This document shows positions 6,666 through 57,367 of a stretch of DNA of 64,000 nucleotides, one piece after another. Below the pieces are notes generated by a model. That model was not told the origin of the DNA, did not search any database, and saw only the letters and a program-made list of their open reading frames with translations. The position numbers and the translations under genes were made by a program. The stretch is from Quercus robur (lineage: Eukaryota; Streptophyta; Magnoliopsida; Fagales; Fagaceae), in the NCBI RefSeq assembly GCF_932294415.1, contig NC_065536.1:930001-994000 (forward strand), read 5' to 3'. Positions within the stretch are counted from its first letter, which is position 1, and every line of letters begins with the position of its first letter.

Positions 6666-8560
6666 TAGAAATGCAAGAGGCATTGCACGATCGAGATCAA
6701 TCTACTTGTTAAATATTATTCATTCATACCGTATATATATATAATTGAAGATAGCAAATGCTCACAAGTCAAAACCAGAAGTCATTGTTTTCCTTGCTTG
6801 GCAAATGGCAAATAACGAAACCTTTGCAGTTTGCAGAACAAGACTTGGAATGTAATGTTAGACAAATGAGAAAAATTAATGAAACAAGGAGATATTGATA
6901 GCATAGGATATCCTACTTGTCATTGGAAGACTTTGTTTAATATTACCAAATATTGTAATTTTGTTTCTGCGAGTACTTCATCTAGAGACTTTTGCTATTG
7001 GAAGAGTTAATCAAGATTAAGTCTAGGTCTTGAGGGGGGTTTTGTTTTATTTTTTCATTTTTGAGACCATTAATTGCTTAAAATTTTGGATCTAGGTGTA
7101 AGAGGTTATGCATGTTTATCACAATGGTCAGACTTCGTAGTGGTATATCAATGTGGGAAGATGGTTTCATTACTCAAGACAAAGAGAAAAAGTTTGCTCA
7201 AAAAAAAAAAAAAAAAGACAGAAAATGGGAGTTGTTAGTAATATTATTTTCAATGTGCTAGTGACATTATTTGACCACTGATAATATAATAATCATTTTA
7301 AGCCCTTCCCTGAATGATTTTCTTGGTCAGTTGTTGAATAATGGTTAAGTTTATCCAAATTCTCTTTCTTTTGGGATAGATTTCAAAGTAAACACAGTAC
7401 ATTGTAAAGTTTCAATTGAACTTCTAACTATCCTCTAACATGGATATATGTTATTGGAGGATCACAATTCGGTTCCCTTCGACTATTCTAATAACAGGCC
7501 TCCAAGACACGATGTTGAATGTCATAAATGACTTGAGTATGCCTCCATTACTTATCACCAATTAATTGATTTTAAAGTAAAATGGTACATCTCATGGTCT
7601 AACATACGCATTTTACATTGATCAATTTCACATATGACAGCCATTGCAAACACCTGTTACCAAAAATGTCAGTAAACTTTTGACAAACTAACTTCTTGAT
7701 TTGTTAAATAAGCAACTTGCTCTAAAATAATTTTCAATATATTGGTCAATAGTATAGCCCATTGTGGTTTGCTAATTAATTTTTCCTATTGGCAGCTGGA
7801 ATTCAGGCAGGTGGGATCTACTTCTAACTTCAAAATGCTCTCACTTGGGATTTGGGGGCAAAACGTAAACTGTCTTTGATGGGGACATAATATCTTGGGT
7901 GGCTTCCAATTAAATAGTTTTTTTTTTTTTTTTTTTTTTTGAGTTATCCAATTAAATAGTTAATAAAAATACACTATTTGATCTAAAAGACTTAAACTTA
8001 TGAGTTTTGGCTCAATTATATTATAATATCGCTTACTCTTATCATTATTTATTCAATTGTAGACCTCACTCACTCGTGTATTCTTAACAAATTTATTATA
8101 TTTTTATAGAAATTTTCATGAATAAGAAAACAGTTTTTTATTTGTAGATTTAAAGGGTATACAAACATAACAAAATTCTTAATAAAATTCTAAAACATTT
8201 GAATATTGTAATCTTTTTATAATAGGTTTTATATATGGGCTTTTTTATTAGCCTTGAATCAAGGACAATAGTGACAAGCACCATTATTGGGCAGGTGATC
8301 CCACGCCATGTATGACAAAGATAATGACCACACGAGTCTCACATGAAACTAAAAAATATTATATTGATAGCATAAGATATCATACTTGTCTTTGGAATAC
8401 TTTGATTTTTTTTTTTTTTTTTTACTTTCTGAATTTTTATGGCGTATTTACTTGTTTTTCCTTGGAATTTATATTGTTAAGGCTATTGAGTGAAAGACTA
8501 ATTGAAAAGAGAAAAACGGAAACAAAAATATAACATAATTTACATCTACATTGAAAAGCT
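6666..8560. other. 5' flank of pseudogene 1, duplicated segment
   Basis: Non-coding. A TATA-like run (about 6731-6742) lies some 70 bases upstream of the pseudogene start. Parts of this flank are similar to DNA around the Helitron array: about 6950-7030 resembles 12640-12710, about 7630-7720 resembles 26690-26780, and about 8230-8320 resembles 26925-27000. There is an A tract near 7200-7216 and a T tract near 7918-7940. Confidence 0.55.
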
Positions 8561-8760
8561 CTTGACAACTATATCTTTGTTATTCATATTTTTATAAATA
8601 TAAACACAATGTGGGATTTACATACAATAAAATCCTAGGCTACTCTTACATTAAACCTAGGATTTGTGTACTTACTCTACAAATATATGGGCGCGTTTAC
8701 AAATGGTTTGGTTTTATTGGGCCATAATACTTACAAGTTCTAACACACCCCTCAAACTTA
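8561..8760 (-). mobile_element. Possible LTR end with polypurine tract (remnant)
   Basis: Read on the minus strand, bases 8758-8745 give a GTTTGAGGGG/TGTTAGAAC junction. That looks like a polypurine tract followed by the TG of a 3' LTR, and the LTR would run left of 8745. The other end and a second LTR were not found, so this is tentative. Confidence 0.3.
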
Positions 8761-8906
8761 AAATGAATCCTTGAATTTGAAATATCTTGAATGAATAACA
8801 TGACCAATCTGGAAAAGCAAAAACGAACGTCGGTGATAGCGAATGGCCACAGTTGATGGTCGACAGCAACTATTGAAAATTGCATCCACAAATGGAAGGA
8901 AGTAAA

Positions 8907-9311
8907 TGGGCAAATGCCCTTTTCAAAAAAAAAAAAAAAAAACTAGCATTTTGCCCCATTTCCCAAACTAATTAGAGAAATGTCCCTCTTTTACAACTCA
9001 ATTTACTCAAAATCGAATTAAGCCCTATAATGGCGTTTTTAAGGAGCCTATAGTGACGTTTCAAAACTCGAGCTCCATGAAATCAAGACATAGTCAAAAA
9101 AAAAAAAAAAAAAAATTACATGTAACTCGAGTTCATGAAGCTCGAGTTACAAAACGCCACTATAGGGCTTCAGAATTTTTTTTTTTTTTTTTTTTTAACT
9201 CGATTTTGAGAAAATCGAGTTTCAAAAGAGAGGTATTTCCCTAATTAATTTGGGAAATGAGACAAAATGCTGGATTGTTTTTTTAAAAAGAACAAAGGCC
9301 AATTTTGTCCC
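8907..9311. repeat. Fold-back (long inverted repeat) element, copy 1
   Basis: The two halves are imperfect inverted copies: CATTTCCCAAACTAATTAG near 8960 pairs with CTAATTAATTTGGGAAATG near 9241-9259. The arms carry CTCGAGTT/AACTCGA and CACTATAGG-type motifs that recur in the hairpins at 41349-41820 and 41919-42293. It is non-coding, and long A and T tracts interrupt the arms. Confidence 0.65.
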
Positions 9312-9538
9312 GAATGGAAGTATCATATTAATGCTACTAGTGGTTGTACGACATATGGTTCACAAGATGTGTCTACCCTCAAAAGGCTTAAGATTGATCA
9401 TGGTTATGGGGTTATGTGAGATGCTTGTGCATATGAGCAAACATCATCATGATGGCACGTGGTCATGCATGATGCACGTGGTCATCTTCTCATCCTTTTT
9501 TTAAATTTTTTTTTTACATTTATATGTATTTTTTATGC

Positions 9539-9577
<39 letters not shown>

Positions 9578-10147
9578 TAATAAAAGAAAGTTCATTGAAT
9601 AAAGAGCAATAAAGTGTTCCTATTTATCAATCATTTTTTAGGGTTGAGAAGTTATAAAAAAGCGTAAAAATAGAAAAATAAAATAAAAATAAGTTTACTT
9701 GTTTTGTATTCCAGTGTTTATTACATTGAGCACTTGAATAGAAGAGCAACATATTTTAATATTCAAGTGTTTATTATAATAAACTCAATATAGAGTTCAT
9801 ATACTTGAGAATTTTAGACAAACTCTAAGATTAGTTTATTTGTTTTATAAATGTCTGCGCCATCAATATTTGGATCTCTTAGACTATCACCTCTCAAATA
9901 GTTTTTTTAAAAGTTTTTAAATTGGTGTCTATAATTTAATTAAAATAAAATAAAAATTGGTCCATCAGCTGTAAACAATAATTCAGAAGTCTCAATAAGC
10001 AATAATAATAATAATAATCATTAAAAAAAAAGTCTCAATAATATTCTTTATATCTTGTGTTAAAAATAAAATTTTCTTTATATCTCTAGTGGGTAAGAAT
10101 TCTAAGTATTTCATGACCAAAGAAAAAAACTAAAAATATATATTTTT
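9312..10147. other. AT-rich intergenic sequence with a TA microsatellite
   Basis: A pure TA run of about 30 bases lies near 9546-9576, with a short AAT run near 10005-10017. No coding sequence is recognised. The sequence before 10148 ends in TTTTT, the possible target duplication of the solo LTR. Confidence 0.5.
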
Positions 10148-11220
10148 TGTAAAGTTGTAATTTACAACTATGTTTTATGTTTGTTTTATTCCATGATAAA
10201 AAGTGTAGTAATTGTTTTAATTTTGTTCCTTGTATTTTGTGGGATTTTATTGTATTGGGTTTAGTATTAAGTTGGTGAAGACTCAAGCTTATCTGAAGAT
10301 CAGTGCATTTTGCGACTAGCTCGCGAGATGTTTGCAAGAAGAGTTCCCACGAAAAGGCATGTGAGAAGCACATGACTGAAAGCTGAAAAGTCGTGCCAGG
10401 CTGTCGTTTTCGCGAGTGTCTCACGGTTAAGGCCTTCCCGCGAGGTACTGGCGAAACATTCTGCCTGGAGGATTTTTAAGTGAGACTTTCATACCCTTCA
10501 CCCATACTATATATACCCTCATTACCCACAAATGTAAAAGAGACCAATCAGAGAGAAAAACCCTAGATAGATTTTCTACAACACATACACCCATCTTTTA
10601 GAGAGAGCTACTCATCCTTAGTGAGAATTCATTATAACCTCTTCTCCTTCCCTCTCCCATTATCATACATTGAGAGGAAATTTGTATCCAAACACAATCC
10701 ATACCTTTTCAGAATGTAGTGAGTGTTTTTGGAGTTGTTAGGAAGCATTGGAAGAAGCCAAGGATGGCAGATGCAACATGGAGCTTGTTGCAGGATCTGG
10801 AGAGCTAGACAAGACATAGTTCCAAGAAGCCTTGTTGGAGTAGGAGCTTGGAGGGCCTAGGTACAGCGAGTAGATTAGGCTTGGAAGGTCTCTTGCTAAC
10901 CCATGTATCCCAACTGATTGTCTAGTGGATTGATTACCGCTTGGAGGGCAGCGGAGAGGTTTTTTGCCGAGTTCTTCGGTTTCCTCTTCGATAACACATC
11001 GGCGTGTTATCTGTGTTTGTATTCTTCTTCCCTACTCTTTTACATTTCATTTTATTGCTATGATTATATGAATATGTGTTAGAGTAGATTGTTTGTTTAT
11101 CCGCTCACATTTACACTATTCCGCACTTAGAATTAAGATAGTGTAAAATTTATCGAGCCGTAACTTTTATTCGGGGGTCTAAACAACTCTTGTGTTTTTT
11201 AACACATTTTCAAGCTTTCA
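10148..11220 (+). mobile_element. Solo LTR of the gag-only LTR retroelement group
   Basis: It starts TGTAAAGTTG and ends AAGCTTTCA. Throughout it is a diverged, opposite-strand relative of the LTRs at 19657-20789 and 24886-25981: for example CTTCGATAACACATCGG and GCTTGGAGGGCAGCGGAGAGG match them in reverse complement. A TATA box (CTATATATACC) lies at 10507-10517, with CGCGAG motifs upstream near 10321, 10410 and 10439. TTTTT flanks both sides, a weak 5-bp duplication because it is low complexity. No internal region is present, so LTR-LTR recombination is the likely origin. Confidence 0.75.
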
Positions 11221-11775
11221 TTTTTTTAAACATTAATTTCAACTGTTATGCCTATTGTGGAAATAAATATGTGAATTTCTTACTTTTACTCAACAGCTAA
11301 GTACAATCGTAGAAATTTAAAGCTTTTAATAACATTTTTTTAATGATAGTAGATAAAAATATGTTAAAAAAACTTAAGTTAGTTATAGTGCGGCAAGACC
11401 CATGCACCCTTGTGTTTCACGCTGCGTAAACTAGGGGTGGCTAAGTAAACCAAAACCCATTTACCCACCCACTCTAATTGAACCCAAACCTACCTAATTA
11501 TTAGTTAGGTTAAATAGGCATCAACCCAATTAGACCCAGTGATTGTTGGGTTTTAACTAAAAACCCATTGAGACTCGTTTAACCCAAAAACAATATACCC
11601 AAATTTAACCCAGCCCCTCCCATAAAATAAAATAAAAAGAAAGAAAGAAAGCAGTATATGAACAATCAAAGTATAAATTTATATTTTTCATAGGGATTAT
11701 TTTCTCAACAAACAATCATAGAAATCAAAACCCTACGAATCAAACAAAAGTAGTATGAGTTTCTAGACTAGATAA

Positions 11776-11818
11776 GGTACCATTCTTGACCAGCAGTGTC
11801 CCAGATCTGAGCCTTGAC
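11776..11818 (-). pseudogene. Captured Rab GTPase fragment (G3 motif)
   Basis: The minus strand reads VKAQIWDTAGQEWY. WDTAGQE is the switch II/G3 nucleotide-binding motif of Rab GTPases, and KAQIWDTAGQE is characteristic of the plant RabA (Rab11) class that works in membrane traffic. Only about 14 codons are present. The fragment joins the DUF538 piece directly at a shared GTCAAGGC, which suggests a microhomology junction. Confidence 0.75.
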
Positions 11819-12110
11819 GGTGACCATGCCGACCTCGAACACCAAGTCTTCGCCGATGGATCAAATCCCAGTGATGGGACCACCACTTGAATAATGCACG
11901 GACCCGAATCCCATCGAGCTCAGCGATCTTACCTGAAACGATCTTTCCCTTGACTGTCTTGGAATAGGTGGCGAGGTAGTTGTTCGGCGGGAGATTGATC
12001 TTGCAGTCGCCGAAGGTCTTGTTTATGGAGCAGCCATGGACTGAGGAGGGTAAGAGTCCGACTGGGAAGCCGTAGTTGGTGAGCTCAGTGTGGGTATTTG
12101 TTGCACTGTC
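11811..12110 (-). pseudogene. Captured DUF538 protein fragment
   Basis: Minus-strand translation gives TELTNYGFPVGLLPSSV, then CKINLPPNNYLATYSKTVKG, KIAELDGIRVRALFKWWS and, after a frameshift at the 'GGGATTTGATCC' stretch, EDLVFEVGMVTVKA. These are the successive conserved blocks of plant DUF538 proteins, a small family of uncertain biochemical role. The piece covers most of the domain but is frameshifted (near 11875-11885) and then runs into the Rab fragment. A functional product is unlikely. Confidence 0.78.
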
Positions 12111-12469
12111 TGGTTGCCAAGAAAGTGAGAGAAAATAGAGAAGAAAAGAAAATATTTTTTTATTTGGATTTTTAATATAATTGCTGATGTGGATGTGCTT
12201 ATGTGGAATTTTTTAATTCCAAGAATGGAGCCTAGAGAGAGTGGAAAAGGGAATCCAAGAAAGTATTGGGGTTTTCACTTTAATGGAATTTTGGTAATTT
12301 TGATAATTGAGTAATTGGGTGAGTTGGGGTTTTCCATAATAATTGGGTTGTGTTAGATTTGGGTTAGAAGCAATTAGTTAAATGGATTTTAACGAGTAAA
12401 TGGGTTTTATATACCTAACCCAATTATGCCCACCCTAAACCCACCCATTTGACACCCCCTAGCGTAAAC

Positions 12470-12716
12470 TGACTAGTGACCAACAGAGTATAAGCTCAAT
12501 AAAGAATAACAAGCTCTCTATAGTAATATATTTGCCGAATTGATGCCTAATTGAAATAATGAGTCCATGCACAATATTGAGTCCACGCACAACTTGAGGA
12601 TAGTGTTTAATAATTAATATAATTAATATGCCAAATATAGTAATTTTGTTCCTGCGAGTACGGCATCTTGGAGACTTTGTTATTAGAAGAATTAATCAGG
12701 TCCAAGTCTAGTCGAA
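12470..12716. other. Left host flank of the Helitron array
   Basis: Non-coding. Bases about 12635-12712 (TAGTAATTTTGTTCCTGCGAG and following) resemble about 6950-7030, so this is part of a duplicated receptor-kinase flank. It ends ...GAA directly before the TC of the first Helitron. Confidence 0.5.
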
Positions 12717-14346
12717 TCTATATATTACTAAAAGCTGAAGCGTAGCGTTTAATATTGCTGCTCTCACATTGTGCCACATCAGCTGCCACGTCATTCTTTT
12801 TTTTTTTTTTTCTTTTTTAAAATTTAATTTGTCCTACAATTTTAAAATGGTTTTTACAATTTTGAACCCTATAAATGTAGCCCACTACTTATTTATTTAA
12901 TTCCATTATTACCCTATAATAAATCTATATAATTAATCCAGCCCACCTCTTATTTATTTAGTTTCACAATCAAGACCAACCCAAAGCCTTTTCAGTTCAG
13001 TTTTAGGGTTTTATGTGAGCCTTTTCAGCTTAAAAAAACAAAAACAAAAACAAAAAAAAAAAAAAAAAAACAAAAACAAAAACAAAAACAAAAACAAAAA
13101 CAAAACAAAACGTTGAAACCTTTCAAGCTTTAGGGGTTTTTTTTTTTTTTTTTTTCCAATTTTCTTATAATTATTTTTAACATTTATTTTTTTAATATTT
13201 ATACTTCTCCAACCTTTCTCTCTCTCTTACCATTTCATCTCCCCACTACTTCAATCTTTCTCCCTCCCTTACCTTTTCATCTCCCTACTACCCTCTACAT
13301 TAATATCATTCTTCCTCTTTCTCTTCATCCTCTTTTATTTTTGTCTCTTCTTATTCACATCCCCTTACTATAAATTTGTCATTATCTCTTCTATTCTTTG
13401 CATAATTTTCCCTCACAAAAAAAAAGGTCCCCTCTCTCTCTCTCTCTCTAAATTTTTTGGTAGATTTTTTTATTTTTCTTGCATCTCTACTTTAGGTTGA
13501 TAATTTTTTATATTCTTTAAAACTCTATTTTGGGTTACTGCGATTTAGTTTTGTTGTTAAAATTATGATTTAGTTTTGTTTTTTAAATTGTTGTTGTTGT
13601 TTTTTTTTTTTTTTTTTTTTTATTCTCTTTGATTGTTAAATGTTATCCTATTGCCTTCTAAAGAATTAAATATAGCATATAAAAATATAATATTATTCTA
13701 TTACATAGCATGATTTGGATAATTTGGTATTTATTCGGTTACATAGCATGATTTTTTATAGTGCTCAATTTAGATGTCAAACTATGAGACTTTACTAATT
13801 TTTGTTTATTTTCTAATCCTTTGTGGTTGACAAAGACTCTTAATAGTTGTATTAGAAGTACTCTATAATGCCATTTATTTAAAGAAAAGCAAAGGTTAGC
13901 CAAACGAAAATAATTGGATAGGTGAAAAATTTTAACTTTTGCAATTTTATTTTTATTATTATTATTTTATAACAATGCATGTATAGAAATATAATTCTTA
14001 GGTTTTGCTAATAATTGTTTATTTGATAATATGTTTTGGGTGAACGAAATTATAATTTCTACAAAAAAAAATAACCTTAATAGATTATCAAAAAATAAAA
14101 TTTATCCTAATATTAGTTCAATTAATTATTGTTAAGTTTTATTAATTTTTTTTTTTTAGTTTACGTTTTTTTGTTGTTTTGGATTGTTCTTATATTATAT
14201 TTATGATTGTTCTTATAATAAATAAAAATATGACTATGAAATACATTACTCATTATTAGATTAGTTTAAATTGTAAAAAAAATAATAATAATAATAAAAC
14301 CACCATAAAAATAATTATCACGCGCAACGCACAGGTTCGCGGCTAG
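12717..14346 (+). mobile_element. Non-autonomous Helitron, array copy 1
   Basis: It has the 5' end TCTATATATTACTAAAAGC and 3' end TTCGCGGCTAG, inserted between A and T with no duplication, as Helitrons are. Just before the end, CGCGCAACGCACAGGTTCGCG can fold: CGCG and AAC pair with GTT and CGCG around a short loop. No Rep/helicase is encoded. The interior has (CAAAAA)n, T tracts, a CT-rich block and ATTATT runs. Confidence 0.9.
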
Positions 14347-43050: not shown

Positions 43051-43082
<32 letters not shown>

Positions 43083-43940
43083 AATGTACTAATTATTAAT
43101 TTTTTTTATGTGACTAATTATCAAGTTTTAACCCAACATTGCTAATGAAACAGTCCAACAAATTCACAATCATAACTGCTTCTTATATTAAATTATTGTT
43201 TTTTAGAATGAGAAAAATAACACAGCTAAAATACATTTATACACTTTTGGAAGTTTCAATGAATGTACTCATTTTGTAGGAATAATAATACAATGTACTA
43301 ATTATTAATTATTTTTTATGTGACTAATTATTAAGTTTTTACCCAACATTGCTGATGAAAAACTCTAAGAAATTCACAATTATTACTGTTTCTTATATTA
43401 AATTATCATTTTTTAGAATAAAAAAAATAGCACGGCCAGAATACGTTTATACATTTTTTGAAGTTTCAAGGAATGTACTCATTTTGTAGGAATAATAATA
43501 CAATGTACTAGTTATTTATTATTTTTTTTTTTATGTGACTAATTATTACTTTTTGACCCAACATTGCTGATGAAACTGTCCAGCAAAGTCACAATTATAA
43601 TTGCTTCTTATATTATTATTATTATTATTTTTAGAATGAGAAAAATAGAACGGCCCGAGTACGTTTAAACCCTTTTGAAAGTTTCAAGGAATGTACTCAT
43701 TTTGTAGGAATAATAATAAAATGTACTAATTAATGATTCTTTTTTTTTTTTTATGTGTCTAATTATTAAGTTTTGACCCAACATTGCCGATGAAATAGTC
43801 CAGCAAATTCACAAATATAAATGTTTCTTATATATTAAAAGATTTTTAGTAGAATGAGATATCATGGAATAGCCAAAATACGTTAATAAACTTTTGGAAA
43901 TTTCAAGGAATATACTAATTTTTAAGAATAATAATACACG
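42370..43940. repeat. Satellite-like tandem array, unit about 215 bp, six copies
   Basis: Units begin near 42396, 42588, 43128, 43340, 43556 and 43777 with AACATT(A/G)CTxATGAAAC and contain AGAATGAGAAAAATAGCAC and AGTTTCAAGGAATGTACT. The spacing of the last four is about 211-221. The second and third are pushed apart by a 345-bp retroposon. Non-coding. Confidence 0.88.
42733..43077 (+). mobile_element. 5'-truncated LINE-like retroposon with AAT tail
   Basis: It is flanked by a 12-bp direct repeat AATACAATGTAC (42721-42732 and 43078-43089) and ends in (AAT)n. The 5' end translates to an RNase H-like stretch (EALMEAVITAKTYGF) and then a 3' UTR-like region. Both fit an L1-type insertion truncated almost to its tail. 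Confidence 0.75.
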
Positions 43941-44072
43941 GCCTTGTGTGTGTGTGTTGGGGGTGTTTAATTATTGACAGGGGATAGAGATTAAAAAAGT
44001 AAAAAGAAAAAAAAAAAAATCTACTCTTTTACTTTCTTTATAGCTTTATATCATATAATTCAAGTTTGTTTT

Positions 44073-44842
44073 TGTAAGGACTCAATTTGTATCGAACCCA
44101 AACTCGTATTGGGTTCGAACGCTAAAGGCCCAAACAATAAATTTGTAGAACGTAGATATAAAAGAACTAGATTAACTTCAGAAGAAAAACGATTAAACTT
44201 AAAGTTTCTAGATGGATTAATACAAGTGTTACTATCAATTTATCCTTGAAATAAGCTAAGTTCTTTATTTCGTAAGATTTTCTTCTAAGCATCAATTGTT
44301 TAGAAGTTCTGATCTTTTCTTTCTCAATGCATTCTTCCATTTTATATATTGCCCTCTTAGTGTCATTTTCACCATACACGTGTAGGTTAGATTCGGGGGA
44401 TCCCTTTCTGTCCTATCCAACACTTCCTGGAACCTTCAACCAGCAGCTGTAAGGCTGCTTCATCACTGTTCAGGCATCACCTCCACATTAATACGGCCAG
44501 AAAGTTGGTTGAGAGGCAATTAATACTAAGGCAGCAGTTGTTAAAGATATTTGTTTATTTTTTCTTTCTTACCCTTGGCCCCATGTCCCACCTTTAGTGG
44601 TAATGTAGTTTCAAAGTGTGTTTGTAACAATACGGCGTTCAGGTCATCCTCGGACACATATTGTTGAGAAGGATTTTGTCCTCGGACGAATACTGGACCC
44701 ATCTCATGTGATATATATCCCTCTTTTCATTTGGTTTCCCTTATAACCTTATGTGGGCCTCCTCGGATGGTTTAACGTCTTCGGATGGGCCACAGGCCCA
44801 ATTAACACGGTTTTAATAATTATTGATTAACTGGCCCCCACA
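44073..44842 (-). repeat. 3' LTR of the Tat-lineage element
   Basis: 770 bp, plus-strand ends TGTAAGGACTC...GGCCCCCACA. Immediately inside (44843-44856) the minus strand reads TTTTGAGGGGCTAT, the polypurine tract for plus-strand priming. Confidence 0.9.
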
Positions 44843-45082
44843 ATAGCCCCTCAAAATCTTGCTTTTCGACTCCTCGGGAGAAAATGTTGACTTTGATGTC
44901 CTCAGCCCATATCCTTTTATGTTTTGGGCATGCTCCTGACGCTTCAACGTCCCGAGCGCGGCAGCATTAAATTTTGGTGACGCCCCAGTCCCCCACATTC
45001 AACGGTAAGATGTAAATCGAACGGTGGAGGGTCTGTCTCGTTTTGCGAGCAGGAACTTTTCCGCTCATAACCTCTGCACAAC

Positions 45083-45090
45083 TATAAAGG
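45083..45090 (+). promoter_or_regulatory. TATA box for the antisense gene
   Basis: TATAAAGG lies about 220 bases upstream of ATG 45306, followed by a CT-rich leader-like stretch. It points in the opposite direction to the retroelement's own transcript. Confidence 0.45.
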
Positions 45091-45305
45091 AATTTTCAAA
45101 TCAACTCTCTTTCTTACCTTCAGCGATCACACAATTCTAGAACTCATACACTGAACCTGTCTTTCTCCTTTTTCGTTGTTTTCTTGTGCATCTCCAAATA
45201 CTACAATCTGTTCCGAGGACCCTTTTTCAAACTTATAAGTCTTCTTAAAACCTTTTCAGCTTTCATCTTAAACTCGTTAATTTTTCTACAAAACCCTTTG
45301 GGAAA

Positions 45306-47906
45306 ATGGGGAAAGTAAGTAAGTTTCAATGTCTGGTTGAGTCCGAGGAAGGTATGAGAAATTTCCGCGCTAAGTTTAGGATCCCCCCAACAGTAGGTAT
45401 GAGGTACACAGCCCAGGGGGAATGGGCCGGCGCTAGAAGAAAAGGGGAAGTGGTTATTTCCATAATTGCCTTCATAGAAGGCGGGATGACCATCCCCATG
45501 GGTACTATTACTAGGAATTACCTTAGGTTCTTTAGGTTATCCCCCACTCAGTATGCCCCAAACATGTTTAGAGTCCTGAGAAGTATAGAAGCCTTAAATG
45601 AGAGAATGGACCTAAACCTGACCCATCATGATGTGAATTGGGTGTACAACCTCAACCATTTGAAGGAGCAAGGATATTATCTCAAGTCGAGGTATCCCGC
45701 GGTGAGGCTAATTCAGTGCCTTCCCACTTCAAACAAGAACTTAAAGAATGATTTCCTTATCTTTTCTGGGGAATAGCATGATGGTCTGCCATGCCCCATG
45801 GAGGAAGGAGAACCAGGTGGGAATGCAGCCATAGATTCATAACGTTCGGTTTATACATATTTTCCCCCTTTTTTTTTTTTTTTTTGAGTCTCAGTATTCT
45901 TATCCTTAATGACGCTTTATTCCAATTCAATGATTTTGCAGATAGACGTTCTACCAAGCCCAAACTTAGTTTAGTCAACAAAGTAAGTTTGGATAGGATA
46001 TTGCAAACCGAGATATAAATGAACGAAGCTGACAGCCAACTCCGAACAACCCATTTAATTCTCGGATACACCCCCCTCTCGTTTGCTTTCCAAGCACTGA
46101 AGTGCGTGATCAGAGCCCGCGATCCTCGGTTTCGCCATATTAGCATTGCCTACCAGGGGTTCGTCATTCCAGAAGGTGTTCCACTTCCTAAGGACACCTC
46201 CCGCATTAAGCCTCTTTTTGTTGCCGCTATCTCAACAAGAGCCTCTTCATCCCAGCTTGCCCTCAGGGAAGAGGAAGTAGAAGAGAAAGGGGAAGACAAA
46301 GAAAAAGAGGAAGAAGAAGAAGAAAATCCAGAGGAAGTTGTAGAACTATCAGACTCCTCGGACGATTTTGGGATTTTTAATCAAACTACACACTTCGAGG
46401 AAGATCTTGACGAGATGGGAGTACAAAGGAAGCCCCAGAAAAGTCTAATGGAGCTAACAGAGAATCAGCCTAGGAAAAGTGCACTAGGAAAATCAACGCA
46501 ATCCTAGATTCCTCCTTTTCCCATCAGGCCTTCTCCTCCCACTCCTCATCAACCTCCCTAGCCGGTCAGAGCTAATGTTGCCGAACTGAAAAGGTGAAGG
46601 GAGCAGAAAGGGAAAGATGTGGTAGACATTGGAAAGTCTCGTTCGACCCACGAAGAAGATGCCCAACAAGCTGCAAAGCAGCAGAAAACTAGCCATACTC
46701 TTCAGCGAGGCCAGGAGAGGTCTGACACTCAACCTCCTAAGCCACAAGCCTGGCTGCCAGTACCCATACACGGTGGGGAACCCCTACAAGATGATGTATC
46801 TATTAGGGACTTCAACGGTGGCATTGGGTGCCACATAGCCTCGGCTGTCGAGGAGGCTTTATTACTCCCAAAGGACATGGCCGAAATAAAAAAATGTAAG
46901 GAAGAATGAGCTCATCCTTAACAATAAAAGATATTTGGGAATGGTATAGTGCTAACTATCTTCTTTTTCCTTTTACGATCATTACTCACTGATGTGTACT
47001 CTTTACTGACTGTAGTGTTAATTTCTTCCTTTTAGGTTATCCAAAACACTTTTAAACTGGATGAGATGCTCAATAACTGCTATAATTAGTTAGAAGATGA
47101 AAGGAAAAGACGGGCGTCGCTGTACAAACTTTAACAATATCCGAGCAAAACTTGGCGAACACGAAGAAAAAATTAATTGCTGAGGAGCAAGCTCGCAAAA
47201 GCTCTAACTCGGCCTTGGAAGGCTACCAAAAGCAAGCCGAGGACCAGAGAAAGTGCTTGTGCGAAGCAAATGAAGAATTGAAGGCTACCCGGAGCAAGTG
47301 GCGGTCCTTAAAAAGCACTTGGAGGAAACCCAAAAATTAAGGGAGCAAGCTAAAAAATCCAGGGAGGAAGCCAAGAGGGCAAGGGTTGAGGCTGAATAGG
47401 CAACGAACAAGGCCGAACAAAAAGGTTACGACCTCGGGGTGGCTGAGATAGAGGAAACCCTAAAGGCAGAGGTGTCAATGGTGTGTCGCATTTACTGCGC
47501 CCAAACCTAGAATGAAGCCCTTAACCGAGTTGGGGTTGAGGCTCATCTGAGTTAAGAAAGGAAGAAAATGTGTTCTATCCTACAGCAATGCCCCGGATCC
47601 TCCATCCACTCTAGCCGAAGACACCCCCTCAACCACTGATCCTAATCAGGACGTTTTGCCTCAAAATCTTCCTCCCTTTGGCCAACCAAACCAGCTAAAG
47701 ACACCAATGCCCCTCAAGAAGCCTCCTTGGACAAGATTGCAGCAGCTTCTGAGGCAGAGGTAGCCTCTCAAGGCTTTCAACAGGATTTGTCTTCCACAGT
47801 CATGCCAGCTGAGGGGGCTACTAAGAACAAAGAGGGAGTCATTACCTCAGAGGCAGATAAATCAGCCAACCAAGCTCCCAAGCTCCAAATTAAGTTGAAA
47901 AAATAG
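45306..47906 (+). pseudogene. Antisense gene of the Tat element, three exons, decayed
   Basis: It lies between integrase and the 3' LTR but reads against the element. Exon 1 (45306-45816) encodes a basic domain (FRIPPTVGMRYTAQGEW); exon 2 (45942-46895) ends in an acidic stretch of Glu runs with VVELSDSSDDFGIF; exon 3 (47036 on) encodes a charged Lys/Glu coiled coil. Intron 1 (CCAG/GTGGG ... TTTTGCAG) and intron 2 (AAAAT/GTAAGG ... CTTTTAG) both have GT-AG ends, and both keep the reading frame of the next exon by my count. Stops at 45774-45776, 46016-46018 and 46505-46507, and a frameshift near 47305-47315, show it is dead. Antisense extra genes are known in Retand-type elements; their function is unknown. 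Confidence 0.8.
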
Positions 47907-48420
47907 GCCTTATTTTTCAATTTGATTAGGATTTTTGTAAGGACTTTGTGTCTATTTGCTTATTGTTGTTGCCGTTTTATCTTATTTTTGTACTTGTTCG
48001 CTCTGTTATCTTAGCTTGAATGGATTCATCTTGACTGTCTTTCGTTTGCAAGAGAAAAAATAACTTATACACATTAACAGTTGGCAGCTAAAATGGGTGA
48101 TAAACATTAATACTGTGAGATTTCAGGGAGACATTTTGGATACATATGTGCTCCTTCTAATAAATTGAAACTTAAGGGAATGTTCAAAAGTTGGATAAAG
48201 TTAGGTCTAAAACACTTCAGTTATACATTAGATGATGCTCATAGGCTTATTGGGTTTTATATCTTCAATAGATAATTAAAAACCCTGTGATCCTAGAACA
48301 ATATTTGAGAATTTGTTATTCTGGATTGCATAAGCCCAAGTGGCACTAGCATTTTAATAGCGAGAGGCTGTATTAGTTTCCATGGAACCCACTTAATGAC
48401 CTAATAGATTTCACAGGATA

Positions 48421-48830
48421 TTAATTTCCACTAAGTTTATGGTCCGAGGACCTGAAATAACTTAGTTTCTATTCAATACTTCAATAGATGTCATAGGGTA
48501 TTAATTTCCACTAAATTTGTGGTCCGAGGACCTCACATAACTTAGTTTCTGTTCTGTTCAATACTTCAATAGATGTCATAGGGTATTAATTTCCACTAAG
48601 CTTGTGGTCCGAGGACCTGACATAGCTTAGTTTCTATTCAATACTTCAATAGATGTCATAGGGTATTAATTTCCACCAAGCTTGTGGTTCGAGGACATGA
48701 CATAACTTAGTTTCTGTTCAATACTTCAATAGATGTCATAGGGTATTAATTTCCACTAAGCTTGTGATCCGAGGACCTGACATAACTTAGTTTCTATTTA
48801 ATACTTCATAAGATGCCATAGGGTATGGAA
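48421..48830. repeat. Tandem repeat, five units of about 80 bp
   Basis: TTAATTTCCACTAA starts units at 48421, 48501, 48586, 48666 and 48746. Each unit holds GGTCCGAGGACC or a variant, a near-palindrome. It lies between the antisense gene and integrase, where Tat elements often carry tandem repeats. Confidence 0.88.
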
Positions 48831-48871
48831 ACACAAGATGCATGATTAGCATAAATTAAAAGAAACCCAAA

Positions 48872-50034
48872 CTAGATTACTTTTATTAATAATAATACCT
48901 CTTGAGATTGCTTACATTCCAAGGATGGAGTACAGCTTTTTTCATCTAGGTCTTCCAGATAATAGGCTCCTATTCTGGCTACTGAAGTAATTCGATAAGG
49001 CCCTTCCCAATTAGGCCCCAATTTTCCCCAGGTTGGATTCTTGGTGGTTCCTAGAACTTTCCTCAGCACCAGATCTCCTACCGCTAACGGTCTCAACTTT
49101 ACATTAGTATCATAGCCTTGCTTGAGTTTATGCTGGTAGTAAGCCAATTGGACCATTGCATTCTCCCTTCGCTCTTCGATCAAGTCTGAACTTTTCCCCA
49201 ACAGCCCATCGTTATTGTCAGAGGAAAATGTACTAGTCCTTAACGTTGGGAATCTATTTTCTAGAAGGATGACAACCTCGACTCCATAGGTCATGGAAAA
49301 AGGAGTCTCTCCTGTTAATCGTCGAGGCGTTGTTCGATAGGTCCAAAGGACATGTGGCAATTCCTCCACCCATTTTCCTTTTGCATCATCCAGTCTCTTC
49401 TTAAGTCCATTGACTATTACTTTGTTAACAGCTTCAGCTTGCCTATTCCCCTGAGGATAGGCCGGAGTGGAATATCTATTCTTTATACCTAAGTCTAAAC
49501 AGTATTGCCTGAAGGTCTTACTATCAAATTTAAAGGCCGTTATCTGAGACAAGAGTGCGCGGAGTTCCAAATCGCGTAACAATATTCTTCCAGATAAACC
49601 TCTTAACATCTACGTCTCTGATGTTAGTCAAAGGTTCAATTTCGACCCATTTAGTAAAATAATCTGTACCAACCAACAGATACTTTTTGTTTCCTAAGGC
49701 TTTAGGAAAAGGGCCGACAATATCTAGCCCCCATTAAGCAAAAGGCCAAGGGCAGGACAGAGGGTTAAGAATTCCTCTAGGCTGGTGGATGTTTGGAGTG
49801 AACCTCTGACACTAGTCACATTTTCTAACATACTCCTGCGCTTCCTTCTGCATATTTGGCCACAAATATGCTTGAGTAATGGCCTAGTGCGATAAGGACC
49901 TTCCCCCTGTATGACTTCCACAAATGCCTTTGTACAACTCCTCTAGGAGTGACTCTGACATCTCGGAATGTATACAAAGTAGGTACGGCTGAGAAAAATA
50001 GCGTTTTTATAACTTTTTGTCCTCGGATAACCAA
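48872..50034 (-). pseudogene. Integrase region of the Tat element
   Basis: The longest open part (48872-49609) covers the end of the catalytic core and the C-terminal domain: the core glutamate context AYPQGNRQAEAVNK, then ELPHVLWTYRTTPRRLTGETPF, and GDLVLRKV...WEGPYRI, the GPY/F module that binds DNA. Upstream frames (49724-50034) hold remains of the N-terminal zinc-binding part in broken frames. Integrase inserts the element's cDNA. This copy is inactive because of frame breaks. Confidence 0.88.
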
Positions 50035-50336
50035 AACCGAGGAGCTTTCCTTCGTATTTTTTCAGCTTCTATTTTCTCTTCGGGTAAGGTGTCACTTTCG
50101 AGGAATTTCAATATGGGATCCATCCAGGTCAACACTAGATTGATTTGATGAACCTGACGTGCGTCCTTTCCTGGTGGGGTGGGTGTACACAAATCTTCGA
50201 CGATTATCACCCAAGGAAAACTCCGTGCTGAAGAGGTGGCAAGGGTTGCCAGGGAATCGACGTGGGTATTTTCACCTCAAGGGATATGCGACAAGTCAAA
50301 AGATTCAAATTTCGTTTGCATACACCTAACTTGACT

Positions 50337-50735
50337 CTAATATCCCTGCATTCTTGGATCTCGCGCTTCCAGATCTCCTTTCACTTCGCCGACTATCAAT
50401 CTTGAACCCGAGAATAATTCTACTACCTTTCCACCCACTTTCTGGACCATACTCATTCCCATCAACAAAGTTTCATATTCTGCTTCGTTGTTAGTAGTCG
50501 AGAATCCCAACCTCAAGGATTTCTCAATGATGATCTCTTCAGGGGATATTAGAACTAGCCCCAATCCTGCCCCCCGCTGGTTTGTTGCTCCGTCCACATA
50601 TACTCTCCAGGAGGAACCGCCTTGTGTGGTAATCAGACCAACCAACTTTTCATCCATGTCACTTTGCTTCATGTTAGCTTCTTCTGGACATTCGGTGAAC
50701 TCAGCTACCAGATCAGCAAGGACTTGGCCTTTCAA
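50337..50735 (-). pseudogene. Second RNase H domain of the Tat element
   Basis: Contains WRVYVDGATNQRGAGLGLVL, then NNEAEYETLLMGM and GSRLIVGEVKGD, the arrangement of an archaeal/plant-type RNase H with its Asp and Glu metal ligands. The Asp of the third motif reads GSR where Asp-Ser is expected, so one catalytic residue appears lost. It lies between the first RNase H and integrase, as in the Tat lineage. Confidence 0.85.
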
Positions 50736-50840
50736 AGAGGTGCAAGGTATATACTTGATGTCGAAAGCACCAAGGATTGTGCCCCACTTAGCAATTCTCC
50801 CAGTATAATCTGCACATCTAAGTATGGACTTGAGAGGTAG

Positions 50841-51113
50841 CTAAGTTAAAATAACCACAGTATGGGCCTGAAAGTAATGTGGAAGTTTACGTGTTGCATG
50901 AACCACCACCAAAATGGCCTTTTCCAATGATAAGTATCTCACCTCAGCTTCATGAAGGGACTTACTTACGTAATAAACTGGTCTTTGGACACCACTGTCC
51001 TCTTCTATTAAGACAAAACTAACTGCATGAGGGGCAACTGCCAAATATGCAAACAGGACCTCATCCACCTCAGGACTAGACGTGATAGGCAACCTAGACA
51101 GGTACTCTTTCAA
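50841..51113 (-). pseudogene. First RNase H region of the Tat element
   Basis: LFAYLAVAPHAVSFVLIEED, then QRPVYYVSKSLHEAEVRY, then KLPHYFQAHTVVILT match the degenerate RNase H that follows reverse transcriptase in Ty3 elements. The frame is broken on both sides. Confidence 0.85.
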
Positions 51114-51215
51114 TTGCTGAAACGCTACAGCACACTTCTCGGTCCATTCAAATCCTTTCCACTTATGCGATAGAAGGAAAAAGGGACGGCACCTCTCAGC
51201 CGACCTGGAGATAAA

Positions 51216-51931
51216 TCAGTTCAAAGCAGTAGTCATTCCAGTCAGTTTCTGCACCTCTTTCGGATTCCGAGGTGCTTGTAAATCGTTGATGGCCTTAATC
51301 TGATTTGGGTTCACCTCAATTCCTCTATGAGTCACCATGTACCCCAAGAACCTCCTGGAGCCTACACCAAAGGAACACTTTGAAGCATTCAGACATAGCT
51401 TATGCTTTCTCAGTATTCCAAAGATGTTCATAAGATGTTCCACATGCTCAGACACCACTTTACTCTTCATTACCATATCATCGATATAGACTTCAATGTT
51501 TTTGCCCAGTTGCGGTTCGAACATTTTAGTCATCATCCGTTGATAGATAGATCATGCATTTTTCAAACCAAAGAGCATCACTTTATAATGATAATTTCCA
51601 ATAGGGGTGACAAAAGCCGTATTCTCTTGATCTTACAATGCTAGCGGTATGATCTTCCAATGCTAGCGGTATGATCTTCCAATGCTAGCGGTATTTGGTG
51701 ATATCCTTAAAAGGCATCCAAAAAACTCATCTGAGGATGACCAACGGTTGCATCCACCAACTGGTCTATCTTTGGCATGGGAAAATGATCCTTGGGACAA
51801 GCCTTATTGAGGTCCGTGAAGTCCACGCACACTCGCCACTTTCCTGTCTTCTTCTTTACCACCATCATATTGGCTAACCATTGAGGGTAAAAAACTTCTT
51901 TGATAGCCCCAACCTGCTTGAGCTTGGCCAC
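51216..51931 (-). pseudogene. Reverse transcriptase region of the Tat element
   Basis: Two open parts. 51707-51931 has KKKTGKWRVCVDFTDLNKACP and PMPKIDQLVDA. 51216-51536 has the catalytic YIDD box in EVYIDDMVMKS, then LRKHKLCLNASKCSFGV. A short near-repeat GCTAGCGGTATGATCTTCCAAT occurs three times at about 51640-51690, disrupting the domain between the two parts. Confidence 0.9.
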
Positions 51932-52246
51932 CTCACTTCTGACAGCTTCGGCATGCTCTTTTGATGGTCGTCGAGGTGGCTATCTTTTCAGAATAACGGA
52001 AGGATTCACGTTGAGTCGATGAAAAATGAAATTTGGATCTACACCTGGGGCTTCATATGGGCTTCATGCAAACACATCCACATTTTCTCTGAGGAATTCC
52101 ATCAATCGCTCCTTCTCTTGCAAAGGTAGTTTAGCCCCAACCTGGAAAAATCTTTCCGGATCATCAGCAACAATTACCCTCTCCAAATCTTCACATTTTA
52201 CCCCGTTGGCTGGTCCATCTAAGGGTAATGCTGGGGGTTTTAATTG

Positions 52247-52978
52247 CTATAATCTATTATCGGCGGTAACCGAGGTCTCTGCCTCTAGCCAATGTTGTAT
52301 AGCCACTACCAGGCACTGTCGAGCTACAACCTGGCTTCCTACTATCTCCAATACTTGGCCTCTAGATGGGTACTTCACTTTCTGATGTAGAGTAAATGAG
52401 ACTGCTCCTAGGGTATGAAGCCAAGGTCTGCCCATAATAGCCGTGTATGGAGAGAAAACATCTACAACAATGAAGTCCACCTTCACCACATCCATACCAG
52501 TTTGCATAGATAGTCTGATCTATCCTTTTGGAATGACCATCCTTCCCTCAAAACTCACCAGAGGGGAACTGTAGGCTGCCAAGTCCTCAGGCTTCAAACC
52601 TAGCCCCTTATACAAATTTGGGTACATTATATCAACAACATTACCTTGATCAATCATTACCCTTTTTACATCGTACCCACCAATTCTCAACGTGACCACC
52701 AGAGCATCATCATGGGGCTATATGATTCCAATCTTATCCTCATCCGAAAAGCCCAAAATCAGGGGGACGTCCACCTTGGCTTTTTTTGACGCTTGGCAAT
52801 GCTCCTCGGCTGGAGGTCGGAATACCGACAGTACCTTGGAAGGATAAGATCCAGTCCTCCCTGGGGAGGCAAAAATAACGTTTATTGTGCCAAGGAGGAG
52901 TCTGAAAGAAGCGTCCCCACGCATCTCTGAGCCTGCTTGGCCTACCCTACCACTGGAATGATATAAGAGTTGCTTCAA
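52247..52978 (-). pseudogene. Protease and gag-pro linker region of the Tat element
   Basis: VDFIVVDVFSPYTAIMGRPWL near 52400-52480 is the C-terminal half of a retropepsin-like domain (the IMGRPWL strand). The DTG active site is not seen in an open frame. Minus-strand frames upstream to 52978 look like the gag-pro linker, with stops. Confidence 0.7.
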
Positions 52979-53311
52979 TTTTCCCTCTCAGACTAACTGC
53001 TCCAAATGGTCCCATAAATTTCTGCAATCCTCCGTCGTGTGTCCATGATCCTAATGATAGTGGTAATAAAGATTTTGGTTGCGTCTCTTAGGCTCTCTTA
53101 CCATCTTGTTTGGCCATTTAAAAAAGGGCTCATTCTTTATTTTCTCAAATACTTGCTGCACTGGCTTCCGAAACACTGCATGAACCATCTGAGTGTTAGT
53201 AGAACCTGACTGCCCAATGAAGTCTTTCCGAGTTCGGTTACTATTGTAACAATCTTGCCTGAAATCCCTCATCTCCTGAGGGATTATCTTAGTCTTTCCT
53301 TTTCCCTAAAG

Positions 53312-54307
53312 TTAGTCTTCTTCTATTCTTTTGTACTTGTCAATCCTATCCATCAATTGGTGTACACTGGTAACAGGTTTACCAGTTAGAGATTTCCTTA
53401 AATCATGCTCGGCTGGAAGACTAGCCTTGAAAGTACTTATAGCCACATCATCATGCTCTCCCTTTATCTCATTAAACATTTCCCAGTATCTATCTGAATA
53501 AGTTTTAAGAGTCTCGCCCTCTCGCATAGACATAGTCAGCAAGGATCCCAAAGGCCGAGGAACCCTACTGCAAGTGATAAAGCGAGCGCCAAAGGCCCAG
53601 GTAAGCTTTTTGAAGGACTCAATAGAGTTGGCCCTTAAGCCGTTAAACCATCTCATCACCACCAGACCCAAACTTAATGGAAAGACCTTGCACATCAAGG
53701 CCTCATCTCTGGAGTAGATAGCCATCCTTTGGCGAAAATGGCTAGCGCGTTCTACTGGGTCTTTCCGACCGTCATATAGGGTGAATGTAGGCTGATGGAA
53801 TCGTCAAGGAAGAATCGCGTCTTCTATATTTCTTGTGAAGGGTGATTTGGAGACTTGGCTTAACGCTTTGTTCATGGCGTTGTTCCCTAAGCCCCTACGA
53901 GGCGGGCTTTTGCACCTATGTTGATGGTTGCACTCCTCTTCATAGGAAAAAGTCTCACTAGGCAGAGTTCTGGATCTCCGCCTATAACTAGCTCCATCCG
54001 TCTCTTCGAATGATGGTGTGGAGCTAGGCAGGGAACATCCTCGCCAGGCGTGACGCAACTCTCTTTTCAACTCGTCAATTTCACGTTGCAGGTTCCTGTC
54101 ATTCTTTGCATGGGAAACATGACTCTTCCCACGAGAGTGACTTTTGGTGGTATGAGTTATGCGCACACTCCCCTCATGGCCTTCTCTCCGTTCGAGACTC
54201 CGATGCGGATTACCATGCTGAGAACCTCTTGACTCTGCTTGGTGTGGGTTGGCATCTACCTGGTGTGGTCCTGCTGTGTATTGATGTGGACCTGCTTCCT
54301 CCATCAT
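53312..54307 (-). pseudogene. Gag region of the Tat element
   Basis: The start (54307) is a His/Gln/Pro-rich tail. The second part (53312-53725) is a retrotransposon gag (capsid) domain with WFNGLRANSIESFKKL and REGETLKTYSDRYWEMFNEI. The frame is broken between 53804 and 53725. No zinc knuckle is visible. The start sits about 40 bases from the primer site. Confidence 0.85.
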
Positions 54308-54344
54308 GAACGTTGAACCAGATTTCTTTTAATTTAAATCAAGC

Positions 54345-54366
54345 TCTTCCCACAGACAGCCCCAAT
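54345..54366 (-). other. Primer binding site of the Tat element
   Basis: The minus strand just after the 5' LTR reads ATTGGGGCTGTCTGTGGGA. Placement is right for a primer site. The expected tRNA (Asp-type TGGCGCC) matches only partly, so the tRNA is not assigned. Confidence 0.6.
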
Positions 54367-55129
54367 TGTAAGGACTCAATTTGTATCGATCCCAAACTCG
54401 TATTAGGTTCGAACGCTAAAGACCCAAACAATAAATTTGTAGAGCGAGGATATAAAAGAACTAGATTAACCTCAGAAGAAAAACGATTAAATTTCTAGAT
54501 GGATTAATACAAGTGCTACTATCAATTTATCCTTGAAACAAGCTAAGTTCTTTATTTCGTAAGATTTTCTTCTAAGCATCAATTGTTTAGAAGTTCCGAT
54601 CTTTTCTTTCTCAATGCATTCTTCCATGTTATATATTGCCCACTTAGTGTCATCTTCACCACACACGTGTAGGTTGGATTCAGGAGATCCCTTCCTATCC
54701 CATCCAACACTTCCTGGAACCTTCAACTAGCAGCTGTAAGGCTGCTTCATCACTATTCAGGCATCACCTCCACATTAATTCGGCCAGAGAGTTGGTTGAG
54801 AGGCAATTAATGCAAAGACAGCAGTTGTTAAAGATATTTGTTTATCTTTTCTTTCTTACCTTTGGCCCCATGTCCCACCTTTAGTGGTAATGTAGTTTCG
54901 AAGTGTGTTTGTAACAATACGGCGTTCAAGTCGTCCTCGGACACATATTGCCGAGAAGGATTTTGTCCTCGGATGAATACTGGACCCATCTCATGTGATA
55001 TCTACCCCTCTTCTCATTTGGTTCCCCTTATAACCTTATGTGGGCCTCCTCAGATGGTTTAACATCTTCGGATGGGCCATAGGCCTAATTAACACGGTTT
55101 TAACAATTATTGATTAACTGGCCTCCACA
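54367..55129 (-). repeat. 5' LTR of the Tat-lineage element
   Basis: 763 bp, clearly diverged by scattered changes and a 7-base deletion from the other LTR. A TATA-like AATATATAA (minus strand) lies at 54629-54637. Insertion is therefore older than the gag-only element by eye. Confidence 0.9.
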
Positions 55130-55134
55130 GTTTT

Positions 55135-55530: not shown

Positions 55531-56040
55531 TCAACCATGGTCGGATAACAATACAGAATAGAGGTGTGGAGGAACATCCTCCATCCACACCTTTAAATCC
55601 GCAACATGTCGTGCATGTTTTGCAAGGTTGTGAGCAATAGAATTGCCAAGTCTACGAATGTGGGAAAATGAAATACAACTGACATCTGTTGAGGTTTTGG
55701 TTGCAGCTAGGATGTGACCAAAGGGTGCAAGTGAGTCTTCCTCATTCTTTAGTGCCTTGATTATTAGTTCTGAATCACCTTCCAAGATGTAACTAGAAAA
55801 ACCAAGTTCTGTAGCAAAATAGATAGCTCTTGCCGCTGCCATTGCTTCAACCAGGTCCGATGAGTAGGGTAGTTGAATCTGCTCTGATAGGGATGCCAGC
55901 ACCTGTCCAGACCCATCCCGAATAACGATTCCAAGACCAGCCTTATTGATGTCCTTGAAAGTTGCTCCGTCAAAGTTTATTTTCACGCAGCCATCAGGTG
56001 GGGGATGCCAAGCAACTCGGGTCGATGTTGGGGTGTCCAT
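55531..56040 (-). pseudogene. LINE RNase H domain
   Basis: Open over 169 codons: INFDGATFKD, GLGIVIRDGSGQVLASLSE, LVEAMAAARAIYFATELGF, LEGDSELIIKALKNE and HIRRLGNSIAHNLAKHA. The Asp-Glu-Asp and late His/Asn motif of plant LINE RNase H are all present. It normally removes RNA from the hybrid. It is separated from the reverse transcriptase by frame breaks. Confidence 0.88.
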
Positions 56041-56328
56041 CTAAGTTCTCCGCACTCTGTTTTCCTTTTGGTAATCCAGTAAGCATCGTTGGGAGGTTTG
56101 AAGCACCTGCGATATGGGATTGTCCTTGTTCAATCTCAGTTGGTTTCTACGATACCATATGTTTCACATGATGACTACCAATAAATCCACCTTGCTGCCT
56201 ACATTTGAGACATAAAGAAGCAGGTCCTTTATATCTGCAAATGAGCGAGATTGATGGCATGTGAAGTCAGGTATAACGTCCCATATTGGAGATAGTTTTT
56301 AGCACTCCCAGATTGCGTGTAGAACCGA

Positions 56329-57045
56329 TTATTCAACTTGTCCACATTGTTCGCACTTGTCATCATTCAAGATCTTTCTCTTTTTCATGTTTTTCTTTAC
56401 TGGAATCACATCTCTGCTAAACCTCCACACAAAATTTTTAATTTTGTTTGGGACATCAAGACCCCATATTAGCTTACAAAGGTCATTGTTTTGGTCTGAA
56501 TGGGCAGGTGATTGATTCTGAAGCTCGTCTTTGGCTAAGAACTTGTATCCAGATTTGACAGTGTATGAACCTGAAGCATTGAAAGGCCATGTGAGTGTAT
56601 CAGCAATAGGGGTAGTGCATAAGGGAATACTCTTTATTAAGTTTACCTCCTGATTGTTGAACAAACCTTGAATGAGATTATCATACCAGCTGTGTGTCTC
56701 CGAATCTATGAGGTCTTTTACCTTAATATCTTCAAATCCTTCTAAAATGTGTGATTGTATCCGTGGGTGCTCCAATGATGGCAGCCATGCATCAAGCCAC
56801 ACACTAATGGACTCCCCACTTCCTACTCTCCATCTAGCACCTTTCAACAAAACATCCCAGCCTTTTAGGATACTATGCCAAGCATAAGATCTTGAATGAG
56901 AATTTGAGGCCTCCAAAATCGAGCAATCCGAGAAGAATTTGGATTTGAATACCCTATAAAATAGAGAATTCTGATTGTGCAAAAGCCTCCATGCTTGTTT
57001 TGCAATTAGTGCATCATTGAAAAGGGCCAAGTCTTTGAATCCCAT
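56329..57045 (-). pseudogene. LINE zinc-binding reverse-transcriptase-associated region
   Basis: Contains MGFKDLALFNDALIAKQAWRL, then LTWPFNASGSYTVKSGYKFL and IWGLDVPNKIKNFVWRF, ending in CEQCGQVE, the start of the zf-RVT cysteine motif. The frame breaks right after it. Confidence 0.85.
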
Positions 57046-57367
57046 ACCCCCTTCAGATTTTGGGAGGCATAGAGTTTCCCATTTGACCCAATGAATCTTC
57101 CTCCTGTCTCCTTTCTAACCCCACCAAAACTTTCTTACTAGGCTTTCAATTTCTGAACATAGACCAAAAGGGAGTTTAAACAACTCATGGTGTAGCTTGG
57201 AATTGCTTGGACCACAACCTTGATTAGAATTTCCTTTCCTGCTTGTGATAGAAGTTTCTCTTTCCACCCTTAAATTTTTCTCCATACTCTTTCTTTGATG
57301 TAGTTAAAACTGGCCTTTTTATTTTTTCCAACAAGAGATGGAAGGCCAAGGTACTTCTCATATTGTC

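Follow-up and report, generated by a model that had tools for sequence, protein, structure and literature searches.

Within the window, a stretch of 64,000 nucleotides of Quercus robur contig NC_065536.1, we found an LTR retrotransposon of 11.06 kb on the minus strand (44073-55129). Its 3' LTR (44073-44842, minus strand, TG..CA ends) is 93.3% identical to 54366-55129 and is paired with the 5' LTR (54367-55129, minus strand), the two LTR lengths being 770 and 763 bp, and a 5-bp target-site duplication, AAAAC, can be read from the sequence at 44068-44072 and 55130-55134. The minus strand carries a gag region with two open frames (53312-54328), assigned by position and residue make-up, in which the sole gag frame scanned (53315-53803) was without Pfam match. 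It also carries the RT-linked RNase H (50841-51215; PF17919, E=1e-17, also PF17917), a second, additional RNase H-like domain of the RVT_3 type (50337-50840; PF13456, E=2.7e-5) and the C-terminal end of the integrase/pol (48872-49609). The latter has no Pfam match of its own and was assigned by similarity to a related element (of family E, described below), to whose pol end it is 48% identical and in which rve and Integrase_H2C2 lie upstream. This domain order in pol, that is RT-linked RNase H, second RNase H-like domain and integrase end, is the one given by Neumann 2019 for Ogre and Retand, where the additional RNase H lies between RH and INT (PMC6317226). Moreover, LTRs of about 770 bp, an internal region of 9,524 bp and a distance of 4,029 bp from pol to the 3' LTR are inside the ranges published for Retand (315-1,194, 7,380-12,869 and 2,933-6,566 bp, respectively; PMC11963269). 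We assigned the element to the Tat/Retand type from the paired LTRs, the order of the pol domains and these sizes. Two neighboring features were also observed: a 210-bp tandem repeat of 4.1 copies directly outside the 3' LTR (43072-43938) and, beside the 5' LTR, minus-strand frames matching RVT_3 and zf-RVT (55531-57114), probably from a LINE-type element.

On the plus strand of this element, an antisense gene extends from an ATG at 45306 to a stop ending at 47906, between the pol end (48872, minus strand) and the 3' LTR, and an 80-bp tandem array of 5.2 copies (48403-48826) separates it from pol. A first, sequence-only reading had proposed such a gene in a Tat-lineage element, and its placement is borne out by the opposite strands of pol and gene and by the additional RNase H. 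A TATA box (TATAAAGG, 45083-45090, plus strand) lies 223 nt 5' of the ATG, in the internal region and about 240 bp from the 3' LTR. Exon 1 (45306-45816) contains the TRP28/PF04195 domain and is interrupted in the window copy by a stop at 45774-45776. Then come intron 1 (45817-45941, phase 1), which runs from GTGGGA to TTTTGCAG, and exon 2 (45942-46943), made of a conserved start, a charged linker and a conserved end, with stops and a frame error in the window copy. Intron 2 (46944-47035, phase 0), from GTATAG to CCTTTTAG, precedes exon 3 (47036-47906), a probable coiled coil that is frameshifted in the window copy. All these parts are on the plus strand and both introns have GT-AG ends, with donors (GTGGGA and GTATAG) that look weak against what we take to be the consensus. 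In the window copy the introns have 33% GC and 46-48% T, while the exons have 46-47% GC and 19-25% T. Once spliced, exons 1 and 2 of this copy contain 8 stops, the later ones arising partly from a net frame error. The window copy is a decayed pseudogene. Hence the earlier claim that the frame is kept across the introns holds for each splice join and for less decayed relatives, not for the window copy from end to end.

All comparison of copies was done within one genome (785.7 Mb in 42 contigs). A search with exon 1 returned 6142 first-look candidates, of which 150 were scored, all matching. Sixty copies, the window included, were then compared: the best 30, another 20 selected for their long open frames, and 10 more B-type copies, which are the remaining listed hits of that type and have short open frames. 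They fall into subfamilies A (25 copies), A2 (4), B (23), C (5) and D (3), and the exon/intron boundaries in all tallies were set from the gene model of the window copy. Of 20 relatives for which stretches of 5.2 kb were examined, 17 have the pol end downstream of the antisense gene, on the other strand. Exon 3 was checked in 20 relatives and stays open over 292 codons in 3 of them. Relatives outside this genome were sought in viral contigs and in bacterial and archaeal contigs, with none found in either. The TATA box, which the first reading had attributed to the gene as its own, is conserved: 55 of the 60 copies have TATA[AT]A at a distance of about 205-231 nt 5' of the start, and between subfamilies it has changed less than the sequence flanking it.

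We tested the introns by comparing these 60 copies. First, the splice dinucleotides proposed from the window alone recur in 55-59 copies at each of the four sites, with GT in 59 and AG in 55 copies for intron 1, and GT in 55 and AG in 57 for intron 2. Both introns are present in all 60 copies, in line with the earlier claim that they are not lost in retrotransposition, and as one would expect of introns that the genomic RNA carries in reverse. Second, exon lengths keep to a frame: 58/60 copies have an exon 1 of 502, 511, 514 or 526 nt (1 mod 3), the other two one of 519 nt, and 45/60 have an exon 2 that is 2 mod 3. Intron lengths are free: intron 1 measures 105-199 nt and is divisible by 3 in 36/60 copies, intron 2 measures 60-121 nt and is so in 17/60. 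In subfamily A, where intron 1 measures 118-199 nt, it contains a T run that is very variable between copies, like a slipping microsatellite. Third, mismatches between subfamilies A and B were sorted by codon position, and those at third positions divided by those at first plus second positions. Exon 1 gave a ratio of 3.2, the first part of exon 2 one of 3.8 and the start of exon 3 one of 1.8; the values for introns 1 and 2 were 1.1 and 1.6. Taking all eight between-group comparisons, this ratio ranged from 0.6 to 1.9 in introns and from 1.2 to 4.8 in exon stretches, so that single values overlap.

We also counted, within each group, the variants common to at least two copies. In exon 1 these shared variants were in significant excess at third positions in B (64/87, p=2e-14), A (p=5e-6) and C (p=0.02), and so they were in exon 2 (B, 119/240, p=2e-7; A, p=0.002; C, p=0.004). 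The excess was weak at the start of exon 3 (B, p=0.066, with 0.15 and 0.036 for its two halves; C, p=0.043; A, p=0.23). By the same within-group test, the introns had no significant third-position excess, the lowest p being 0.095. In B, the level of variation in intron 1 (35%) matches that at the third positions of exon 1 (37%; p=0.80) and exceeds that at its first and second positions (p=6e-7); likewise, intron 2 was similar to the third positions of exon 2 (p=0.55) and more variable than its first and second positions (p=0.003). Comparison of the copies shows two predicted introns, of phase 1 and phase 0, separating three exons shaped by protein-level selection. By this comparative evidence the reported introns are real, and from it we infer splicing itself.

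The protein was said by the first reading to be of an unknown kind, a view that has to be replaced, since its exon 1 carries the TRP28/PF04195 domain already described in antisense ORFs of Retand. In the window, exon 1 matches PF04195 (Transposase_28, TRP28) with E=1.8e-4 and 22.1 bits, below the Pfam cut-off of 26.2, and 33 of 34 aligned domain sequences match it at E<=0.01 (best, 5.5e-13). A sequence search for relatives of solved structure returned 0. The coiled coil suggested earlier agrees with weak matches of exon 3 to coiled-coil-type profiles, such as Filament in a relative (E=0.006, under its cut-off). Within exon 2 lies the sequence VVELSDSSDD (46337-46366, plus strand), which we take to be a SUMO-interaction type of motif. 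A strict pattern for it was found in 33/60 copies, with variants such as VVDLTESSDEF, and a relaxed pattern, fitted after seeing the sequences, in 52/60 copies and in all subfamilies. This motif is kept inside a poorly conserved charged linker, with a preceding stretch that is acidic in subfamily A and of mixed to basic charge in B. The combination of TRP28 domain, SUMO-interaction-like motif and coiled coil suggests, as far as sequence features can tell, a nuclear, oligomeric regulator. Tentatively, its role might be that of a nuclear trans-acting regulator of the element, in transcription, silencing or targeting to chromatin, which agrees with the regulatory role suggested for TRP28 in Vicient 2025, where DNA binding is suggested as well (PMC11963269).

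A genome search with PF04195 gave 4149 candidates; the 150 that were scored all exceeded the cut-off, and 10 loci were read. Seven of them form a distant family, E, with domain identity to the window of 23-26% for the five aligned. A profile comparison of the window family with family E (29 and 2 sequences) gave a probability of 84% and E=7e-6. The family E gene has three introns, of 84-88 nt (phase 1), 76-85 nt (phase 1) and 63-77 nt (phase 0), whose splice sites are GT in 6/6, 7/7 and 7/7 copies and AG in 5/6, 6/7 and 6/7, respectively; one copy lacks the first intron through a deletion that removed exon sequence too. In six copies, exons had a third-position excess (p from 1e-13 to 6e-6) and introns none (p 0.29-0.63). 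The exon between the first two introns measures 177-180 nt in 6/7 copies and has an excess of its own (p=1e-6). The first intron is within about two residues of intron 1 and of the same phase, in an alignment that is weak at the junction, and the last one lies, like intron 2, directly before the probable coiled-coil part and is also of phase 0. One family E element has RT, RNase H, RVT_3 and integrase downstream of the gene on the opposite strand. The remaining three loci form family F (domain identity 27-29% in the two aligned), with a phase-1 donor at the place of the first intron. After this donor, at about 2200-2700 of the locus L064 (locus coordinates), we noticed by eye repeated units of several tens of bases, by which the presumed first intron of family F seems much longer than in the window family.

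The first reading had named intact relatives that read straight through the introns as evidence against it. Reading intron 2 as coding sequence is ruled out, since none of the copies (0/60) has it open and in phase. Intron 1, by this standard, can be read through in 17/60: 1/25 in A, 0/4 in A2, 11/23 in B, 5/5 in C and 0/3 in D. The B set contains every one of the 22 hits listed for its type and one more copy, so that its share is not a product of choice. Intron 1 could then be an optional "exitron", retained and translated in B and C and spliced in A and D, with intron 2 alone obligatory. Besides these open frames, two observations point in that direction: 20/23 B copies have an intron 1 whose length is divisible by 3, and in 6/60 copies the sequence from exon 1 through intron 1 to exon 2 reads without stop; with intron 1 left out, 8/60 are open. 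However, intron 1 of B has no significant third-position excess (17/38 shared variants, p=0.095) and varies like silent sites, 4 of the 5 C copies owe their inclusion to long open frames, and stops or frame changes are found in 24/25 A, 4/4 A2 and 3/3 D copies. We consider this alternative unlikely.

Less probable still, and in our view improbable, is that two or three separate antisense ORFs, for TRP28 and for the coiled coil, are divided by non-coding spacers and never spliced. Such an arrangement would agree with the Retand survey, which lists antisense ORFs and in whose main text the word "intron" occurs 0 times (PMC11963269), and with subfamily A, where those 24 of 25 copies bring the exon 1 frame to a stop or frame change within intron 1. 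But the coding signature reaches the GT/AG boundaries on both sides and the phases fit, the dinucleotide pairs are conserved while the interiors of the spacers vary like silent sites, and the 177-180 nt exon of family E is short for a separate gene. Finally, although the broken window copy alone could not prove a gene, the idea that chance GT/AG pairs and open frames in a decayed element mimic one has almost nothing left to it, as conservation over 60 copies together with the subfamily-wide codon signature rules out chance GT/AG in a dead element, and the TATA box in 55/60 copies, the PF04195 match and the parallel gene in the distant family E contradict it as well.

We also looked for processed, intron-less copies as a fossil trace of splicing, and none were found in the genome. 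Searched genome-wide, the spliced joins of intron 1 (33 nt, up to 3 mismatches) and of intron 2 (35 nt) gave 0 matches each, while the unspliced acceptor patterns gave 286 matches for intron 1 and 202 for intron 2, and 0 for reversed controls. A 20-nt join match at the locus L061 was rejected as not being the antisense gene, its best exon 1 hit having E=2.5; the reversed control for this search gave 7 matches. The absence of spliced joins fits introns protected in the antisense strand of the genomic RNA; taken alone, it would equally fit introns that were never spliced.

Taking these observations together, the window gene is very probably a decayed copy of the Tat/Retand-type TRP28/Transposase_28 antisense accessory gene, and that gene a spliced one of three exons. 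The antisense transcript would be made by host RNA polymerase II and both introns would be removed by the spliceosome, giving a predicted product of about 790 residues in which an N-terminal TRP28 domain would be followed by a charged linker bearing the SUMO-interaction-like motif and then by a C-terminal coiled coil. The genomic RNA would carry the introns as their reverse complement, unspliced, because of which they would survive retrotransposition. We further lean, with less confidence, towards the view that the TRP28 antisense gene was ancestrally multi-exon and spliced. Its phase-1 intron, behind the TRP28 domain, and its phase-0 intron, ahead of the coiled coil, would be older than the split of families whose domains are now 23-26% identical. 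They would have been carried through countless rounds of reverse transcription by their antisense direction, and some subfamilies may also use intron 1 as an optional coding exitron.

The antisense TRP28 gene class is known, and it is its introns that are less expected. According to Vicient 2025, 97% of Retand clusters have antisense TRP28 ORFs (PMC11963269), and Neumann 2019 gives Transposase_28 in 23% of Retand elements (PMC6317226). Like the window gene, the Retand TRP28 ORFs lie antisense between pol and the 3' LTR, contain PF04195 and occur with a tandem array in elements of corresponding dimensions; they are described as ORFs (PMC11963269), whereas for the window gene we predict the splicing of three exons, and for family E of at least four. 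The uninterrupted ORF published for the TRP28 antisense gene is not the form found here, where comparison gives three exons and two introns. Yet an uninterrupted frame is how the TRP28 gene has been described, not what defines it. For five Retand clusters, the table of Vicient 2025 gives TRP28 only in ORFs under 600 nt (PMC11963269), about the size of the exon 1 frame here, which suggests a link between the two. Antisense ORFs are reviewed by Vicient and Casacuberta 2020, who call for attention to antisense and spliced transcripts and in whose review "intron" occurs 0 times (PMC7264820). Our literature search, judged by titles, abstract openings and single passages and with the primary papers on the extra ORFs and on Grande gene23 outside its scope, found no description of introns in the antisense TRP28 gene.

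Other systems share some of these properties. Grande gene23 is antisense, transcribed from its own promoter and codes for a nuclear protein (PMC7264820). Together with the antisense ORFs of RIRE2 and Retand, it resembles the window gene as an antisense accessory gene with its own upstream promoter, the comparison with the window gene being made by PF04195 alone (PMC7264820). HBZ of HTLV-1 is likewise an antisense gene of a retroelement with a spliced RNA and a nuclear product, as we propose here (Romerio 2023, PMC10186651). Likened by description, it differs in having its promoter within the 3' LTR and in belonging to an animal virus (PMC10186651). The Ogre polyprotein intron is, like those of the window gene, an intron in a Tat-lineage element (Neumann 2019, PMC6317226), but the window-gene introns are antisense. 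In retrotransposition reporters too, the orientation of an intron relative to the element decides its loss on retrotransposition (PMC12786077); the reporter intron is sense to the element and lost, whereas the window-gene introns are antisense and kept.

What these introns would mean goes beyond the decayed copy in the window. Retroelements are expected to lose introns, and a conserved intron-bearing gene in a very large retrotransposon family would show that antisense orientation shields introns from loss. If this is true, surveys of uninterrupted ORFs would cut the TRP28 antisense gene into pieces. The spliced model would put right how the gene for a common accessory protein of plants is drawn and give a complete protein (about 790 residues) in place of fragments. 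It would also make testable, with antisense RNA reads that already exist, both the function of the gene and its origin, perhaps the capture of a cellular intron-bearing gene.
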